Below, piece by piece: positions 7,092 to 53,610 of a stretch of 64,000 nucleotides of DNA. A program made the position numbers and the translations under genes. Origin of the DNA: Olsenella sp. oral taxon 807 (GTDB lineage: Bacteria; Actinomycetota; Coriobacteriia; Coriobacteriales; Atopobiaceae); NCBI RefSeq assembly GCF_001189515.2, contig NZ_CP012069.2, forward strand, positions 1,736,001-1,800,000, written 5' to 3'. Within the stretch, counting starts at the first letter, position 1. Every line of letters starts with the position of its first letter. Below the pieces are notes generated by a model, which saw nothing but the letters and a program-made list of their open reading frames with translations, made no database searches and was not told the DNA's origin.

Positions 7092-7227
7092 CGCACACGG
7101 CGATGGCACGCATGGGACAGTGGCACGAATCCTCATCCGAGGCTGTGTTGGGAACCATGCAGGGGATCCCTCCAAAGTGTACGTCTTCATCTCCTTAAAG
7201 AAACTTAACTGGATTTTATCGACCCAC

Positions 7228-7517
7228 CTCACGGAAAGGCGCACTGTGCCGGCACCCTCACGGAGAAGCGCATTCTGGTCGGTCTGGAGGTTGCAGGCTG
7301 CGTCTTTCGGTGAAGTCAGACTCCAAACCAAAGTTTGCGGACCCTAGCGCAAACCACCCCGCATTCTGGCGGGTGGTTGCTCGAACGTATTTGCCCAGTT
7401 GAGCCATTTTCTATAGTACCCCGCATTCCGGCGGGCGGTTGCCCCGCGCCTCCTCTGGGCGACAACATGACGGAAAAGCGCAGTCTGCACGCGACGTCTC
7501 ACGGAAAGACCTTCTTG
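7228..7517. repeat. Repeat cluster A: 20-bp 'TCACGGAAAAGCGCA-TCTG' units around a hairpin block
   Basis: Forward units lie at 7229-7248, 7258-7277 and 7468-7487, with a degenerate one at 7499-7517. A reverse unit lies at 7294-7313. The last two forward units start 31 bp apart, the pitch seen in clusters B and C. Between the arms, 7314-7467 is a block shared with cluster C: it has the phrases TTTGCGGACCCT and TTTGCCCAGTTG and two short hairpins of the form CCCCGC...GCGGG, at about 7352-7370 and 7420-7440. No convincing ORF spans it. The remainder to 7757 contains no gene that I can support. Confidence 0.8.
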
Positions 7518-12058: not shown

Positions 12059-13429
12059 TCAGCCCAAGAGGGCGTTGAACAGCTCGGACGTGCTGGGGTG
12101 CGTGTAGATCCCGCCACCGAGCTCGGTAGCGGTCATCCCTGACCTGATGGCAACGGCGACCGCATTGATGAGCTCCTGGGCGTCGGGGCAGAACAGGGTC
12201 GCCCCCAATATGAGGTCGCTCTTTACGTCGATCACGAACTTGGCCATGCCGTCGGTCTGGCCAAGTATCTTGGGTCTGGGGACGATGGCCATATCGGCGA
12301 TGAGGCCGCTTTTCACCACGACGTCATACCCCTTCCCGACTGCGGCAGCCTCGCTCATGCCGACCGTCGCAAGGGGAGGCTCTATGAAGGTCGTGGTGGG
12401 AAGAACGCGCCCGCACGTGCTGCGCGCGCCCGCATGCCCCTTGTCAGCGCCCCAAGCGTCCTCGAGGATGATGCGGTGGTCGTCGAACGAGACGTAGGTG
12501 AACTGCGGACCACCGTTCACGTCCCCTGCGGCATAGACGCCATCGACGTTGGTGCGCAGGTGCTCGTCCACCTTCACGGCACCGCGCGGCGTGACCTCTA
12601 TCCCTACGGCACCCAGGTCAAGCGTCGAAGTAGCAGGCTTGCGTCCTATCGCACAGAGCACGGCATCGGCCTCAAGGACGCTCCCGTCGGCCAACCTGAC
12701 CCTGATACCGTCAGCCTCCTTTTCGAAGAGCGTGGCCGTGTTGTTGAGGTGGAAGTTGATGTTGCGTCTCTCGAGTACGCCCTGGGCGTACGCCGCGACG
12801 TCAGGCTCGAAGTTGCGCAGTGCCCTGTCAGAGTTGTCCACGATGTGGACCTCGGTCCCAAAGCCCGAGAAGAGAGTGGAGAACTCGAGGGCTATCGGCC
12901 CACCACCCACGATCACGAGACGGCGTGGGAGCCTCTCTATCTGCTGGATGGAGGTGGATGTGTACACGCGCGGAAGGTCTGCTCCGGGCACAGGGGGTAT
13001 GATGGTCTCGGAGCCCGTGTCTATGATGACGACCGTGCCCTCGATGACGCGCTCCTTTGCCTCGGTCCTGACCGCGATGGTCCGCTCCCCGACGAAGCGA
13101 CCCTCTCCGAGGATCACCTGCACGCCGGCAGCCTCTGCCATCTGAAGGTTTGCCGCATTCATCTTCCTGACGAGGGCATTGCGACGCTGCTGCGCCCTCT
13201 TGAACGCCTTTGCGCCGTCATCACCCCCCAGCTCGAAGCGGGCCATGTCGGTCAGGAGGGTTTTCGTGGGCACGCACCCCACATTGATGCACGTGCCGCC
13301 ATACATCATGGGATCGCGCTCGACGAGCGCCACGCGATCTCCCGCCTTCGCACGCTTCATCGCGACGGTCTTTCCCGCCTTGCCAAACCCAATGACGACG
13401 AGATCGAAATCCTCCGTGGAGCCTGCCAT
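12059..13429 (-). CDS. rclA: RclA-like FAD-dependent pyridine nucleotide-disulfide oxidoreductase
   Basis: 456 residues from MAGSTEDFDL. ATG 13429 is preceded by GAGAGGAGA, and the longer ORF to 13501 is not family-like. FAD-binding IGFGKAGKT (13-21) is the variant typical of RclA rather than mercuric reductase or lipoamide dehydrogenase. The redox pair is in GGTCINVGCVPTK (Cys 47 and Cys 52), the NAD(P)H motif is VGGGPIALE, and the C-terminal H-P-S-T-S-E supplies the partner His. RclA-type enzymes reduce hypothiocyanous acid (and Cu(II)) and protect bacteria against peroxidase-derived oxidants in saliva and mucosa. The role here is inferred from that similarity. Confidence 0.85.
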   Translation of the reverse strand: MAGSTEDFDLVVIGFGKAGKTVAMKRAKAGDRVALVERDPMMYGGTCINVGCVPTKTLLTDMARFELGGDDGAKAFKRAQQRRNALVRKMNAANLQMAEAAGVQVILGEGRFVGERTIAVRTEAKERVIEGTVVIIDTGSETIIPPVPGADLPRVYTSTSIQQIERLPRRLVIVGGGPIALEFSTLFSGFGTEVHIVDNSDRALRNFEPDVAAYAQGVLERRNINFHLNNTATLFEKEADGIRVRLADGSVLEADAVLCAIGRKPATSTLDLGAVGIEVTPRGAVKVDEHLRTNVDGVYAAGDVNGGPQFTYVSFDDHRIILEDAWGADKGHAGARSTCGRVLPTTTFIEPPLATVGMSEAAAVGKGYDVVVKSGLIADMAIVPRPKILGQTDGMAKFVIDVKSDLILGATLFCPDAQELINAVAVAIRSGMTATELGGGIYTHPSTSELFNALLG

Positions 13430-13544
13430 CGCCTGTCTCCTCTCCTCGAATGCCCATGTCGGGCCGTCCGCAAAGACCACTATAGTCTTATCGCACATCA
13501 TAATACTTGTGCATGAGTCTGGGGAAGCCGAGGCCTATCGGGAA

Positions 13545-13760
13545 CTACCGGGCAACCCCGTCATCCCCTATGCACAGAAGAGAGGTGCAGCAGGTGTGAA
13601 TGAGCTTCACATCGTGGGTGATCAAGAGGATCGTCTTGCCCGTCCCCCTCAGTGACTTCAAGCTCTTGAACACCTCGGGCATGTGTCGATAGTTCGATCC
13701 GCTGGTCGGCTCATAAAACAACAGAAGCTTCTTGCCAGACGCCATCGCGCTACCAATTGC
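13545..13760 (-). pseudogene. ABC transporter ATP-binding protein, 3' remnant
   Basis: Only the C-terminal part of an ABC ATPase remains. ASGKKLLLFYEPTSG is the Walker B/D-loop region with the Walker B Asp changed to Tyr, followed by YRHMPEVFKSLKSL and the H-switch LLITHD. The Walker A and signature motifs are absent, and the upstream side passes directly into repeat cluster B. It resembles energy-coupling-factor type ATPases. Non-functional. Confidence 0.75.
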
Positions 13761-13770
13761 GACATGAGGG

Positions 13771-14034
13771 CAGACTGCGCTTTTCCGTGAGGCGTCGGTT
13801 GGAGAATGCGCTTTTCCGTGACCCTGCGGATGCAGACTGCGCTTTTCCGTGACCCTGCGGATGCAGAATGCGCTTTTCCGCAGAATGCGCTTTTTCTCAC
13901 CTGGGCAAACGTGTCGGCACCTCACGGAAAAGCGCAGTCTGGAGTCGACACCTCACGGAAAGGCGCATTTTGAACAGCTGCGGTACCAAAAAGCGCACTT
14001 TGCAACCCAACGCCTCACGGCAAGGCGCATTCTG
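13771..14034. repeat. Repeat cluster B: two opposed arrays of a 20-bp unit at exactly 31-bp pitch
   Basis: Left array, reverse orientation (CAGACTGCGCTTTTCCGTGA): units start at 13771, 13802, 13833 and 13864, each 31 bp apart, with a fifth at 13881. Right array, forward orientation (TCACGGAAAAGCGCAGTCTG): units start at 13922, 13953, 13984 and 14015, again 31 bp apart. Between them lies CACCTGGGCAAACGT, which recurs in similar form at the centre of cluster C (near 43269). The arrangement looks like two sets of protein-binding sites facing each other. Overlapping reading frames in this stretch are repeat translations, not genes. Confidence 0.85.
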
Positions 14035-14120: not shown

Positions 14121-14486
14121 TCATCCCTGTGCCTCTGAGTCGTTGGCATCACCCACAATCTTTTCGATCGCATCTCGTGCAGCCTGCAGGGTGCCGATCG
14201 TCTCGTCGATACGCGACATCTTCGCGCGCAGTGCCCGGACGGACTTGGGACAGAGCGTTGAGACGCCGCCATCCCACGAAAGGCAGGACGCACTCTGTGC
14301 TATCTCATTTGTGGAGAATCCTGCGGCAATGAGCGCCTGCACTCCTTTTGCCACCTTAATGTCGGCGGATCCATACACGCGATACCCCAGGTCATCGCGC
14401 CTTGGTGCCAGCAGACCCTGCACCTCATAGTGGCGCAGCGACCGCACCGAGACTCCCGCCGCGCGGGCGGCTTCATTGATCCTCAT
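14121..14486 (-). CDS. MerR family transcriptional regulator
   Basis: 121 residues from MRINEAARAAGVSV. ATG 14486 was chosen because AAGGGG precedes it and the MerR winged helix starts there. The N-terminal DNA-binding region shows INEAARAAGVSVRSLRHYEVQGLL and the wing Y-R-V-Y, then a C-terminal helix suited to dimer coiled-coil formation (RAKMSRIDETIGTLQAARDAI). The only Cys pair is in the linker region, so a metal sensor is possible but not evident. It diverges from the amidohydrolase gene, which has a MerR-type promoter, so it likely controls that gene and itself. Confidence 0.9.
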   Translation of the reverse strand: MRINEAARAAGVSVRSLRHYEVQGLLAPRRDDLGYRVYGSADIKVAKGVQALIAAGFSTNEIAQSASCLSWDGGVSTLCPKSVRALRAKMSRIDETIGTLQAARDAIEKIVGDANDSEAQG

Positions 14487-14494
14487 ACGACCCC

Positions 14495-14525
14495 TTGCCT
14501 TCACATTGATGTCAATCCCTACCAT
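14495..14525 (+). promoter_or_regulatory. MerR-type promoter with 19-bp spacer and dyad
   Basis: A -35-like TTGCCT (14495-14500) and -10-like TACCAT (14520-14525) are separated by 19 bp, the lengthened spacer typical of MerR-activated promoters. Inside the spacer is a perfect inverted repeat ATTGA-TG-TCAAT (14505-14516). It reads toward the amidohydrolase, whose ATG lies 43 bp downstream, and sits next to the divergent merR gene. Confidence 0.65.
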
Positions 14526-30429: not shown

Positions 30430-30895
30430 AAATGGAAGCTTCGTGAGCTCGTGTGGGTGGGTGGTTGCGTTACCGCTAGGGCGGCGTGGGCATCACCGCC
30501 AAGGCGACGACGCAGGAGTGTACACAAATTGGCTAAAATGGTCTCTCGGTACCGTTTTTGGGCGTTTGTGTACACTGTTGGGCCGTGGGCTTGGGTTGTG
30601 GGTGGCCTTGGGATCGCAATAGTGTACACAAATGGGAGGATCGGGCCTCTCGGTGCCGTTTTGGGGCATTTGTGTACACTGTTGCAACGCGAGTCGCGAT
30701 ACGAATTGCGACGCGAGCTGCGCCAGGTGGCACGAGCGCCTCAACCGCCACGGCGTGCCGGCGGCGCCCCCTCGCTGGCCCCTCTCGCTTGGTCGGGAAG
30801 ACAGACTCTGAGCGAGTGGCGCCGTTGCCAGGTTGGCATCTTCGCCAAGGCGTCAACCCACACGAACCCCCGAAGAGCCTCGAAATGAGTGCTTG
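30430..30895. repeat. GTGTACAC-containing intergenic element, copy 1 (two 58-bp units)
   Basis: The element begins near CTTCGTGAGCTCGTGTGGGT and ends near CCACACGAACCCCCGAAGAG, which are imperfect inverted ends. It contains two 58-bp units, each starting and ending with GTGTACAC (30518-30575 and 30622-30679). The outer 12 bases of each unit pair with each other and an inner AAAAxGG/CCGTTTT pair gives a long hairpin. Downstream, GTCGCGATACGAATTGCGAC is a further imperfect dyad. Copies 2 and 3 are at 33905-34253 and 53350-53610. No ORF is credible here. Confidence 0.85.
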
Positions 30896-33904: not shown

Positions 33905-34253
33905 ACTTTGTGAGGTTCGTGAGCTCGTGTGGGTGGGTGGTTGCGTCACTACCCCGGCAACGTGGGCGTCACCGCCAGGGCGACGACGCAGGAGTGTACA
34001 CAGATCGGCTAAAATGGCCTCTCGGTGCCGTTTTGGGGCACTTGTGTACACTGTTGAGACGCGAGTCGCGATACGAATCGCGACGCGAGCTGCGTCAGGT
34101 GGCACGAGCGCCTCAACCACCATGGCGTGCCGGCGGCGCCCCCCTCGCTGGCCCCTCTCGCTTGGTCGGGAAAACAGACTCTGAGCAAGTGGCACCGCTG
34201 CTAGGTTGGCATCTTCACCGAGGCGTCAACCCACACGAACCCCTGAAGAGCCC
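33905..34253. repeat. GTGTACAC-containing intergenic element, copy 2 (one 58-bp unit)
   Basis: Closely similar to copy 1 over most of its length but with a single 58-bp unit (33994-34051). The same imperfect inverted ends are present (TTCGTGAGCTCGTGTGGGT and CCACACGAACCCCTGAAGAG), as is a perfect inner dyad TCGCGAT-ACGA-ATCGCGA. The right end abuts the DUF4143 remnant at 34254, so the element may have inserted in or deleted part of that gene. Confidence 0.85.
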
Positions 34254-42928: not shown

Positions 42929-43341
42929 CAAAGTGCGCCTTTCCCGTGAGACATCCAGCGCAGAGTGCGTCTTTCCGTGAGGCCAAACTCCAGGCCGGGT
43001 TTGCGGACCCTGGTGCGGTCCGCCCCGCAGCCTAGCGGGGGGTTCCTCGAGCGCATTTGCCCAGTTGGACCATTTTTCACGGTACCCCGCAGTCTGGCGG
43101 GGGGTTGGCCCCACAACCTCCTGTGGGCGGTAACGTGACGCAAGGGCGCAGTGTGCGCGATCTGGGGGTCGCAGGGTGCGCCTTTCCGTGAGGCGTGGGG
43201 GACAGACTGCGCTTTTCGGTGACGCTCAACAGACAGAGTGCGCCTTTCGGTGAAATGCACCTTTCCTGACCTGCGCAAACGTCGCGCCATCTCACGGAAA
43301 GGCGCATTTCGTGGCTGCGTCTCATGGAAAGGCGCACTCTG
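42929..43341. repeat. Repeat cluster C: opposed 20-bp units at 30-31-bp pitch around a hairpin block
   Basis: Reverse units begin at about 42930, 42961, 43172, 43203 and 43234 (31-bp steps within each group). Forward units are at 43136-43155, 43292-43311 and 43322-43341. From about 42981 to 43135 lies the same block as in cluster A, with TTTGCGGACCCT, two CCCCGC...GCGGGG hairpins and ATTTGCCCAGTTG. Between the inner arms, TGACCTGCGCAAACGT matches the centre of cluster B. The rest of 42713-43432 shows no gene. Confidence 0.85.
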
Positions 43342-50384: not shown

Positions 50385-51818
50385 TTGAACCTTGGAAGGG
50401 AGACCGAGACCGTCGAGTTCAAAAAGACGACGTCTGAGCTGCGCGAGGGTATAGAGTCCATCGCCTCGATACTCAACAAGCATGGAGCGGGTGAGCTCTA
50501 CTTTGGTGTTCGTGACGACGGCGAGGTAACTGGACAGGACGTTGCAGGATCCACATTGAGGCGTGTCAGCCAAGCCGTCGCCAGCTCAATATCTCCAACG
50601 ATCCATCCTTCCGTCGAAAGACTCGACGACGGTGAGGGGCGAAGCTACATTCGCGTGTCGTTTGTTGGTAGAGAACCTCCGTATTCTTGCCACGGTCGCT
50701 TTCGGACTCGCGTTGCCGATGAGGACGTCCCCATGTCTCAGGAGGAAATCGGCAGGATGTTCCTCTACGCCCGCACCCATGAGTTGCCTTGGGACGAGTG
50801 GGAGTCAGATCGTCCGATTCTCGATATCGACGAGGAGGAGCTCAGAGCGTTCGTCAGTCGTGGAAATGCCTGTGGTCGCATTGAGGAGCCGTTCGCATCA
50901 GTAGAGGCAACGCTTGAAGGACTCGGACTATTACGAGGTGACCATCTAACCAACGCTGCCGAAGTCCTGTTCTGCACCTCTCGCGACGTCGAGCTCAAGA
51001 TGGGCATCCTCGCGACACACGCACGTACCGAGATTCTGGACCTGCACCAAGAGTCCGGTACCCTATTCGAACTCGTGCGTAAGGCACAGACATATATCCT
51101 CAACAACACACGGAGGCGCTTCGTCATCAAGGGGATGGGGCCACGTGAGGAGATTCCCGAGATACCCACCGATGCGGTACGCGAGATCCTGATCAATGCC
51201 TACACGCATCGTGACTGGCTCTCCTCAGGTTGTGTACAGATAGATATCTACAATGACAGCGTCGAGGTGTTTAACCCCGGATGGTTCATAGAGGGCCAGG
51301 ATCCCGAGGCCCATTTGTCTGGAAAGAGCAGATCGTCGCTCACTCGAAACGAGCTCATAGCGAGGACCCTCTACAGATCGAAGGACATCGAGTCATACGC
51401 ATCGGGCATCCCACGCGTAAGAGACCTCTGCACAAATGCCAACATCTGTATCGAGTACCAGCGTATGGCCGATGGCACCAACTTTGTGTTTCACCGCAAC
51501 GACGCGTTCGCCGACAACCCGCCGACAAACCGCCAACAAACCGCCGACAAACCGCCGACAAACCGCCGACAAACCGCCGAACCCTTAGAATCGCAACACC
51601 CCGCTTGGAGGGATATGCCCGAGAACGATAGGCTCGTGTACCAGTACCTACTGGAAAATGGCAGCTCACGCACCTCTGACATTGCACGCACCCTTAAGGT
51701 CTCACCCCGCACGCTACGCGATGTCATGCGTCGCCTGAGCGAGCGGGGCGTCGTGGTTGCCCACGGTGCCAACAGGAACCGGACATACGACCTGGCACCG
51801 AGGGCGAGGGGTACCTGA
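50385..51818 (+). CDS. AlbA_2 (Schlafen-type)/HATPase DNA-binding protein with variable tandem repeat
   Basis: 477 residues from TTG 50385. The N-terminal AlbA_2 domain is ETVEFKKTTSELREGIESIASILNKHGAGELYFGV; the central part DAVREILINAYTHRDW and the SSLTRNELIARTLY region form the HATPase-like C-terminal domain found in 'RecG-like' AlbA_2 proteins. Residues about 376-398 are two 11-residue repeats encoded by six 11-bp units. A C-terminal winged helix (YLLENGSSRTSDIARTLKVSPRTLRDVMRRL) ends the protein. The family is often found in defence islands and may bind nucleic acid. Because the repeat unit is 11 bp, gain or loss of a unit would remove the winged helix. Confidence 0.85.
   Translation: MNLGRETETVEFKKTTSELREGIESIASILNKHGAGELYFGVRDDGEVTGQDVAGSTLRRVSQAVASSISPTIHPSVERLDDGEGRSYIRVSFVGREPPYSCHGRFRTRVADEDVPMSQEEIGRMFLYARTHELPWDEWESDRPILDIDEEELRAFVSRGNACGRIEEPFASVEATLEGLGLLRGDHLTNAAEVLFCTSRDVELKMGILATHARTEILDLHQESGTLFELVRKAQTYILNNTRRRFVIKGMGPREEIPEIPTDAVREILINAYTHRDWLSSGCVQIDIYNDSVEVFNPGWFIEGQDPEAHLSGKSRSSLTRNELIARTLYRSKDIESYASGIPRVRDLCTNANICIEYQRMADGTNFVFHRNDAFADNPPTNRQQTADKPPTNRRQTAEPLESQHPAWRDMPENDRLVYQYLLENGSSRTSDIARTLKVSPRTLRDVMRRLSERGVVVAHGANRNRTYDLAPRARGT
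51511..51576 (+). repeat. Six tandem 11-bp repeats inside the AlbA_2 coding region
   Basis: Unit CCGACAAACCG, six head-to-tail copies plus a 4-bp partial; copies 2, 4, 5 and 6 are identical. 11 is not a multiple of three, so three units encode 11 residues and any change in copy number shifts the frame. Confidence 0.9.
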
Positions 51819-53349: not shown

Positions 53350-53610
53350 GGAGGCTTCGTGAGTTCGTGTGAGTGGGTGGTTGCGTTACCGCTAGGGCGG
53401 CGTGGGCGTCACCGCCGGGCAACGACGCAGGAGTGTACACAAATCGATGGAAATGGCCTCTCGGCGACGTTTCGGGGCGTTTGTGTACACTGTTGCGACT
53501 CGCGAGGATCGTGCGAACAGCCGTAGTGACGCAGAGTGTACACAGATCGGCGGAAATGGCCTCTCGGCGCCACTTTGGGGCATTTGTGTACACTGTTGCG
53601 ACGCGAGTTG
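53350..53610. repeat. GTGTACAC-containing element, copy 3 (two 58-bp units)
   Basis: Begins GCTTCGTGAGTTCGTGTGAG as in copies 1 and 2. Units lie at 53433-53490 and 53536-53593, each 58 bp with GTGTACAC at both ends. The second unit's right end provides the likely GTG start codon (53586) of the DUF1016 gene. The right half of the element seen in copies 1 and 2 is missing, replaced by the DUF1016 coding sequence. Confidence 0.85.

Follow-up and report, generated by a model that had tools for sequence, protein, structure and literature searches.

The window, that is, the whole stretch of 64,000 nucleotides of Olsenella sp. oral taxon 807 DNA analysed here, carries at 13771–14034 an array of short units in two opposed arms, which lies between the genes for a pyridine nucleotide-disulphide oxidoreductase and a MerR-family regulator (Table 1). 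An earlier note on this DNA had described eight units, four facing four, around a conserved centre. Indeed, all eight units are present, and the core between the arms recurs genome-wide as full-length matches. The same note gave the unit as 20 bp and all six steps within the arms as exactly 31 bp. According to the information profile, the conserved stretch is 22 nt, and the pitch of 31 bp holds for four of the six steps: the left arm has 31, 31 and 31 bp, and the right arm, if the conserved ends of its units (13941, 13972, 14002 and 14034) are taken as reference points, has 31, 30 and 32 bp, where the last two steps flank the third right-hand unit, which is shifted by 1 bp. The fourth left-arm unit (13864) deviates at its 3′ end, at the onset of the core. 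A ninth, truncated unit at 13880–13896, 17 bp after the fourth one, was absent from the earlier list; it overlaps the centre and is part of the conserved core.

Two other array clusters and three copies of a MITE-type element, here called M, lie in the window, and all three M copies are without arrays. An 11-bp tandem repeat (CGCCGACAAAC; 6.5 copies, 95% matches) was also observed at 51509–51580.

Table 1 Features of the window, with positions counted from its first nucleotide
Feature	Position	Strand	Description
Pyridine nucleotide-disulphide oxidoreductase gene	12059–13501	−	Flanks the array
Apparent C-terminal fragment of an ABC-type ATPase	13545–13745	−	Cut off at the edge of the array; assigned by eye from its translation
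Left arm	13771–13885	+	Four 22-nt CAGANTGCGCYTTTCCGTGAGG-type units, starts 13771, 13802, 13833, 13864
Core A of the window array	13864–13941	+	Last left unit, overlapping truncated unit 17 bp on, TCACCTGGGCAAACGT motif, first right unit
Right arm	13920–14034	−	Four opposite-facing units, about 13920–13941, 13951–13972, 13981–14002, 14013–14034
MerR-family regulator gene	14121–14525	−	Flanks the array
Second array cluster	7227–7487		Four units, core B (172-bp type)
Third array cluster	42961–43341		Seven units; one core A match and one core B match
M without array	30435–30879	+	Left end GAAGCTTCGTGAGCTCGTGTGGGT, right end ...ACCCACACGAACCCCCGAAGAGCC, flanks TTGAAATG/TCGAAATG (7/8)
M without array	33911–34252	+	Near-duplicate flanks CACTTTGT/CATTTTGT with the left end read one base further in; 3/8 match in the fixed register of the systematic scan
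M-type left end with palindromic interior	53351–53606	+	No right end found nearby; truncated copy

Units, cores and spacing across the genome

The genome is a single contig of 3,213,585 bp. A search for the 15-nt core of the unit with at most one mismatch gave 594 matches, compared with 0 for the reversed-pattern control. Since, in addition, 381 adjacent pairs show the same 31-bp pitch, we conclude that the window array did not arise by chance. With a weight matrix, 796 units were detected in the approximately 1.27 Mb read (evenly spaced samples and places known to hold arrays, containing 457 of the 594 core matches), and 790 of them fell within 63 clusters of at least three units; the reversed-sequence control gave 49 matches. 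These counts of clusters and units are lower bounds, as some 20% of the units are outside the stretches read in context. The genome-wide count and map that the earlier note had proposed as a check gave at least 63 clusters over the chromosome. The 31-bp pitch, whose absence elsewhere would have refuted the reading of the note, is kept at the other clusters.

The unit is CAGANTGCGCYTTTCCGTGAGG, 22 nt long and followed by a near-random 9-bp spacer; each position carries 0.5–2.0 bits of information in the unit and about 0.1–0.4 bits in the spacer. Two different cores, core A and core B, stand between opposed arms. Core A has a start-to-start spacing of 56 bp, common to 89 opposed pairs, and contains TYACCTGSGCAAACGT. 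Core B, across which the spacing is about 172 bp, contains AACTGGGCAAATGCG and two GC-rich hairpin-like repeats of the type CCCCGC...GCGGGG. The motif CTGGGCAAA(C/T)G is common to both cores. The cluster adjacent to tpi (L033 12839–14305) contains three tandem copies of a 428-bp super-unit that combines core B and core A.

The spacing between same-strand neighbours was 31 bp in 381 cases, 30 bp in 54, 32 bp in 14, 41–42 bp in 34 and 52 bp in 3; that is, it was exactly 31 bp in 381 of the 449 spacings of 30–32 bp. Opposed neighbours were 38 bp apart in 81 of the 105 back-to-back pairs and 56 bp apart in 89 face-to-face pairs. The proposal of the earlier note, that the spacers had diverged while the spacing stayed fixed, with the units on one helical face, agrees with this quantisation at 31, 41/42 and 52 bp within arms. 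Neighbouring units separated by unrelated spacers (at most 4 of 9 positions identical, n = 290) were still 84% identical, and spacer identity was 39% overall, close to the 35% between clusters. The units appear to be constrained, because under tandem duplication alone units and spacers would diverge in step; the fixed pitch could in part be inherited through such duplication.

To assess phasing, similar spacers were collapsed into families, which may share hidden ancestry and so may not be fully independent. The 19 unrelated spacer families with a spacing of at least 34 bp were in phase with 31 bp, with a period of 10.3–10.5 bp (best 10.3 bp); at 10.5 bp, the observed value exceeded that of every one of 20,000 random sets. 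That unrelated spacers keep to a step of 10.3–10.5 bp supports the idea of one helical face. The distances between opposed units fit one face as well, although as weak tests: 38 + 56 = 94 bp (about 9 turns) and 172 − 56 = 116 bp (about 11 turns).

Genomic setting and distribution

Among 28 clusters from the evenly spaced stretches, 25 had no overlap with any gene called by a simple purpose-written gene caller. As 31 is also not a multiple of 3, the units are not relics of a degraded coding repeat, the case that the earlier note itself had named as refuting its reading. The genes flanking the clusters have all orientations, no preferred arrangement and diverse functions; uvrA, tpi, rapZ and the IMPDH, secA and tsaE genes are among them. 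On the tpi side, the gap that holds the cluster measures 1709 bp, compared with 89–294 bp between the syntenic genes in relatives, and on the tsaE side it is 2.7 kb, compared with about 0.3 kb in most relatives. The open frame between the two clusters that separate tsaE and tsaD (L057 10463–11508) resembles, by eye, an AbiEi/DUF559-type protein. An AAA_14/DUF4143 ATPase gene lies between two clusters with similar outer flanks (L051 15310–19372), and another AAA_14/DUF4143 gene adjoins a cluster in L023.

The number of clusters per tenth of the chromosome was 9, 7, 7, 5, 3, 8, 4, 3, 6 and 11, with no clear ori/ter trend relative to an origin roughly placed near 2.95–3.0 Mb from the sampled GC skew. 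A replichore-polar (KOPS-like) motif was rejected, the core matches being about equally divided between the strands (291 and 303). A CRISPR-like array and plasmid iterons were ruled out by the 9-bp spacers and by the lack of a single locus. Plasmid or replication iterons would stand with a Rep or partition gene at one origin; here, at least 63 dispersed clusters with unrelated neighbours were found.

Comparison with related species, also proposed in the earlier note, showed that the arrays are not conserved but missing from every relative searched. The 15-nt core occurred 0–2 times per genome in 59 relatives, like the control. Full-length core A and core B were absent from the genus, and full-length core B from 140 family genomes, where short weak matches stayed at noise level. 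Neither the array family nor M loci were present in four congeners, and the 31-bp pitch was not found in a 360-kb sample of a congener. The exact two-unit pattern had no match in GTDB genomes or in IMG/VR, the array had none in plasmids and phages, and Rfam families gave 0 matches at the gathering score. The family is species-restricted among the genomes searched, a set that other strains of the same species stand outside.

The repeat load of this genome is high overall, as there were 406 distinct 14-mers occurring at least 5 times in 360 kb, compared with 4 in 360 kb of the congener G004; this load includes the GAGTGGCAGTG family, which is unrelated to the arrays. Two regions stand out in composition, with a G+C content of 73% (genome 1–20000, L018) and 52% (320001–340000, L022) compared with about 62% elsewhere.

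M elements and the resident ISL3 insertion sequence

When the flanks of several clusters were aligned, they proved to share their ends: GAGGCTTCGTGAGCTCGTGTGGGT... at the left and ...ACCCACACTAACCCCCGAAGAGCC at the right. The M copies, and these only, carry IS-related TIRs like those of a MITE, with the left end GAGGCTTCGTGAG(C/T)TCGTGTGGGT and the right end GGCTCTTCGGGGGTT(A/C)GTGTGGGT. A scan of the sequence read for 8-bp target duplications (TSD), another MITE property, showed that 15 of 25 M elements match at 7–8 of 8 positions; when the flanks of different elements were paired as a control, the mean was 2.6, and 1.8% reached at least 6. Like MITEs, the M elements are short (193–1050 bp between ends), present at many loci (about 40 genome-wide) and devoid of a transposase: no left-right pair spanning a transposase-sized interval was noticed.

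Nine M elements hold units. Six of these match at 7–8 of 8 positions, and one more, at 1506921, does so when offset by one base; the remaining two show no match. A minimal copy of 422 bp with the TSD TTATGTCT contains four units but lacks a core, which a deletion between direct units would explain. Only about 13 of the 63 clusters showed M ends, whole or partial, and the other 50 are without them. At the window's own array, at 13771–14034, no M ends were recognisable around the arms, and there is neither a TIR nor a TSD; this array is either a decayed copy or one that spread via another route.

The genome has a resident ISL3 insertion sequence with the ends GGCTCTTCGGGGTTTTTGGTGGGT and the TSD TATTTTTT. 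Of the two full-length PF01610 matches in the genome, that at 530941 is bounded by GGCTCTTC ends with an 8-bp TSD. ISL3-type ends and duplications in M go together with an ISL3 transposase in the same genome, as in an ISL3-derived MITE. Counted by eye, the ends of M and of the ISL3 element are alike at about 20 of 24 bases. Because of these closely similar ends and the 8-bp duplication, the resident ISL3 is the likely mobiliser, and its transposase presumably mobilises the M elements in trans; this reading is based on the similarity of the ends and the 8-bp duplication rather than on an autonomous element whose ends are identical. Another ISL3 transposase, at 869297, adjoins a minimal M copy, but was rejected as the mobiliser, as it appears to be part of a different IS with other ends.

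Interpretation and comparison with known systems

Our preferred reading, to which we give a probability of about 0.65, is that the array forms the internal module of a dispersed repeat that is composite, MITE-like, non-autonomous and lineage-specific, and that this module is a phased array of probable protein sites. The 22-nt units of the family keep a helically phased pitch and stand in opposed arms on the two sides of core A or core B, at no fewer than 63 places that are mostly intergenic. Part of the family went in as MITE-type cargo, with an ISL3 transposase presumably acting in trans, since at least nine array copies lie inside complete TIR elements, most of them with 8-bp duplications. 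The duplicated spacers and the tandem 428-bp super-units suggest that arrays gain and lose length by tandem duplication and by deletion between units, through slippage or unequal exchange. As the units are alike, the spacers random and the phase kept, each unit is probably the binding site for one protein, several copies of which would sit on one helix face on either side of the core. The array most probably benefits the element, not the host cell.

The arrays with core A or core B might instead be transposable elements themselves, with the units as terminal or arm-type recombinase sites, and be caught in M elements only sometimes. The 50 clusters without M ends, which nevertheless all match core A or core B, would agree with this, as would the motif common to both cores and another conserved flank shared by a subset of the core B arrays. 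However, clusters without M ends showed, by eye, neither a constant outer boundary nor a target duplication, and the scan of flanking genes revealed no recombinase gene. We regard this explanation as rather unlikely.

It is improbable that the arrays serve the host as protein-binding sites (of a nucleoid organiser, in partition or replication control, or as repressor operators) and are merely carried or flanked by mobile DNA. The conservation of the units among random spacers, the helical phasing and the spread of clusters over the whole chromosome would suit such a role, but the arrays are missing from the four congeners and the 140 family genomes, their neighbour genes are unrelated and in all orientations, the ori/ter pattern is not clear, and part of them lies inside elements with target duplications. 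The same observations speak against the nucleoid, partition or replication site suggested in the earlier note; a repressor, which the note also named, or another binder may still act on the units. A hairpin element acting as RNA or extruded DNA (a BIME/REP-like or BrickBuilt-like stem loop), in which the arms matter by pairing, is very improbable. The window array does fold at −144.6 kcal/mol (z = −10.6 against shuffles), and core B has its two GC-rich hairpin-like repeats; a strong fold is, however, the trivial outcome of opposed copies. Mirror-placed units are 81% complementary, compared with 84% for units of different clusters, and mirror spacers match at 30% compared with 35%; a unit taken singly does not fold stably (0 to −0.5 kcal/mol, not better than its shuffles). 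That mirror units show no excess of complementarity over random ones disfavours pairing as RNA or cruciform.

For the preferred MITE-like composite repeat, the closest known systems are BrickBuilt and BOX, of which the present family would, by analogy, be a more elaborate cousin. BrickBuilt of Porphyromonas gingivalis, described by its authors as a MITE that trapped a repeat, is likewise a minisatellite in an intergenic MITE-like element with the TIRs of a resident IS, variable in copy number and restricted to its species, and its distinct leader and tail, one or both of which some copies lack, are a further likeness (PMC4596501). BrickBuilt, however, has 23-nt repeats without spacers, about 19 copies and IS5-type ends (PMC4596501), whereas the present family has 22-nt units with variable 9-bp spacers, phasing, opposed arms around two cores, no fewer than 63 clusters, ISL3-type ends and an 8-bp TSD. 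The BOX elements of Streptococcus pneumoniae and S. suis are likewise modular, combining end modules with internal modules that vary in number; the same internal module is enclosed by different end modules in S. suis, and BOX is judged parasitic and non-autonomous (PMC3049150). In the part of the published account compared here, the boxB modules form a tandem array, and neither phased variable spacers nor opposed arms are described (PMC3049150). The SIRC elements of Arabidopsis differ in being eukaryotic, and the portion of their description considered mentions neither phasing nor opposed arms (PMC10342631).

REP/BIME sequences with RAYT share the very many short intergenic units, the alternating orientation and the regular spacing, but REPs are palindromic, have a GTAG-type head and flank RAYT genes (PMC2817692). 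Neither a palindromic unit of 20–40 nt nor a repeat-flanked RAYT gene was found here, and a RAYT/REP system was rejected: the unit is not palindromic, and neither of the two Y1_Tnp matches lies within or beside a detected cluster. These matches (1897213–1897560 and 2547829–2548131) look like degenerate IS200-type remnants.

New here in relation to the closest systems are the variable phased spacers, the opposed arms around two cores and the scale. A bolder and tentative reading, to which we assign less than even odds, is that the arrays serve as phased platforms on which a lineage-specific DNA-binding protein, encoded by either the element or the host, would assemble on one face of the helix and on both sides of the core. 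Selection on this assembly would have kept the unit and the phase while the spacers were randomised, and the minisatellite of a selfish repeat would then be a functional nucleoprotein scaffold.

Compared with a near relative, this genome owes a good part of its repeat load to the arrays, and the family looks like spreading, probably protein-bound, non-coding DNA rather than a one-off control region. A bacterial MITE minisatellite can be read as a trapped passenger; approximately 800 units that keep their sequence and phase despite the drift of the spacers point to a binding protein. The predicted protein would be the reason why such arrays persist, and this prediction is directly testable.
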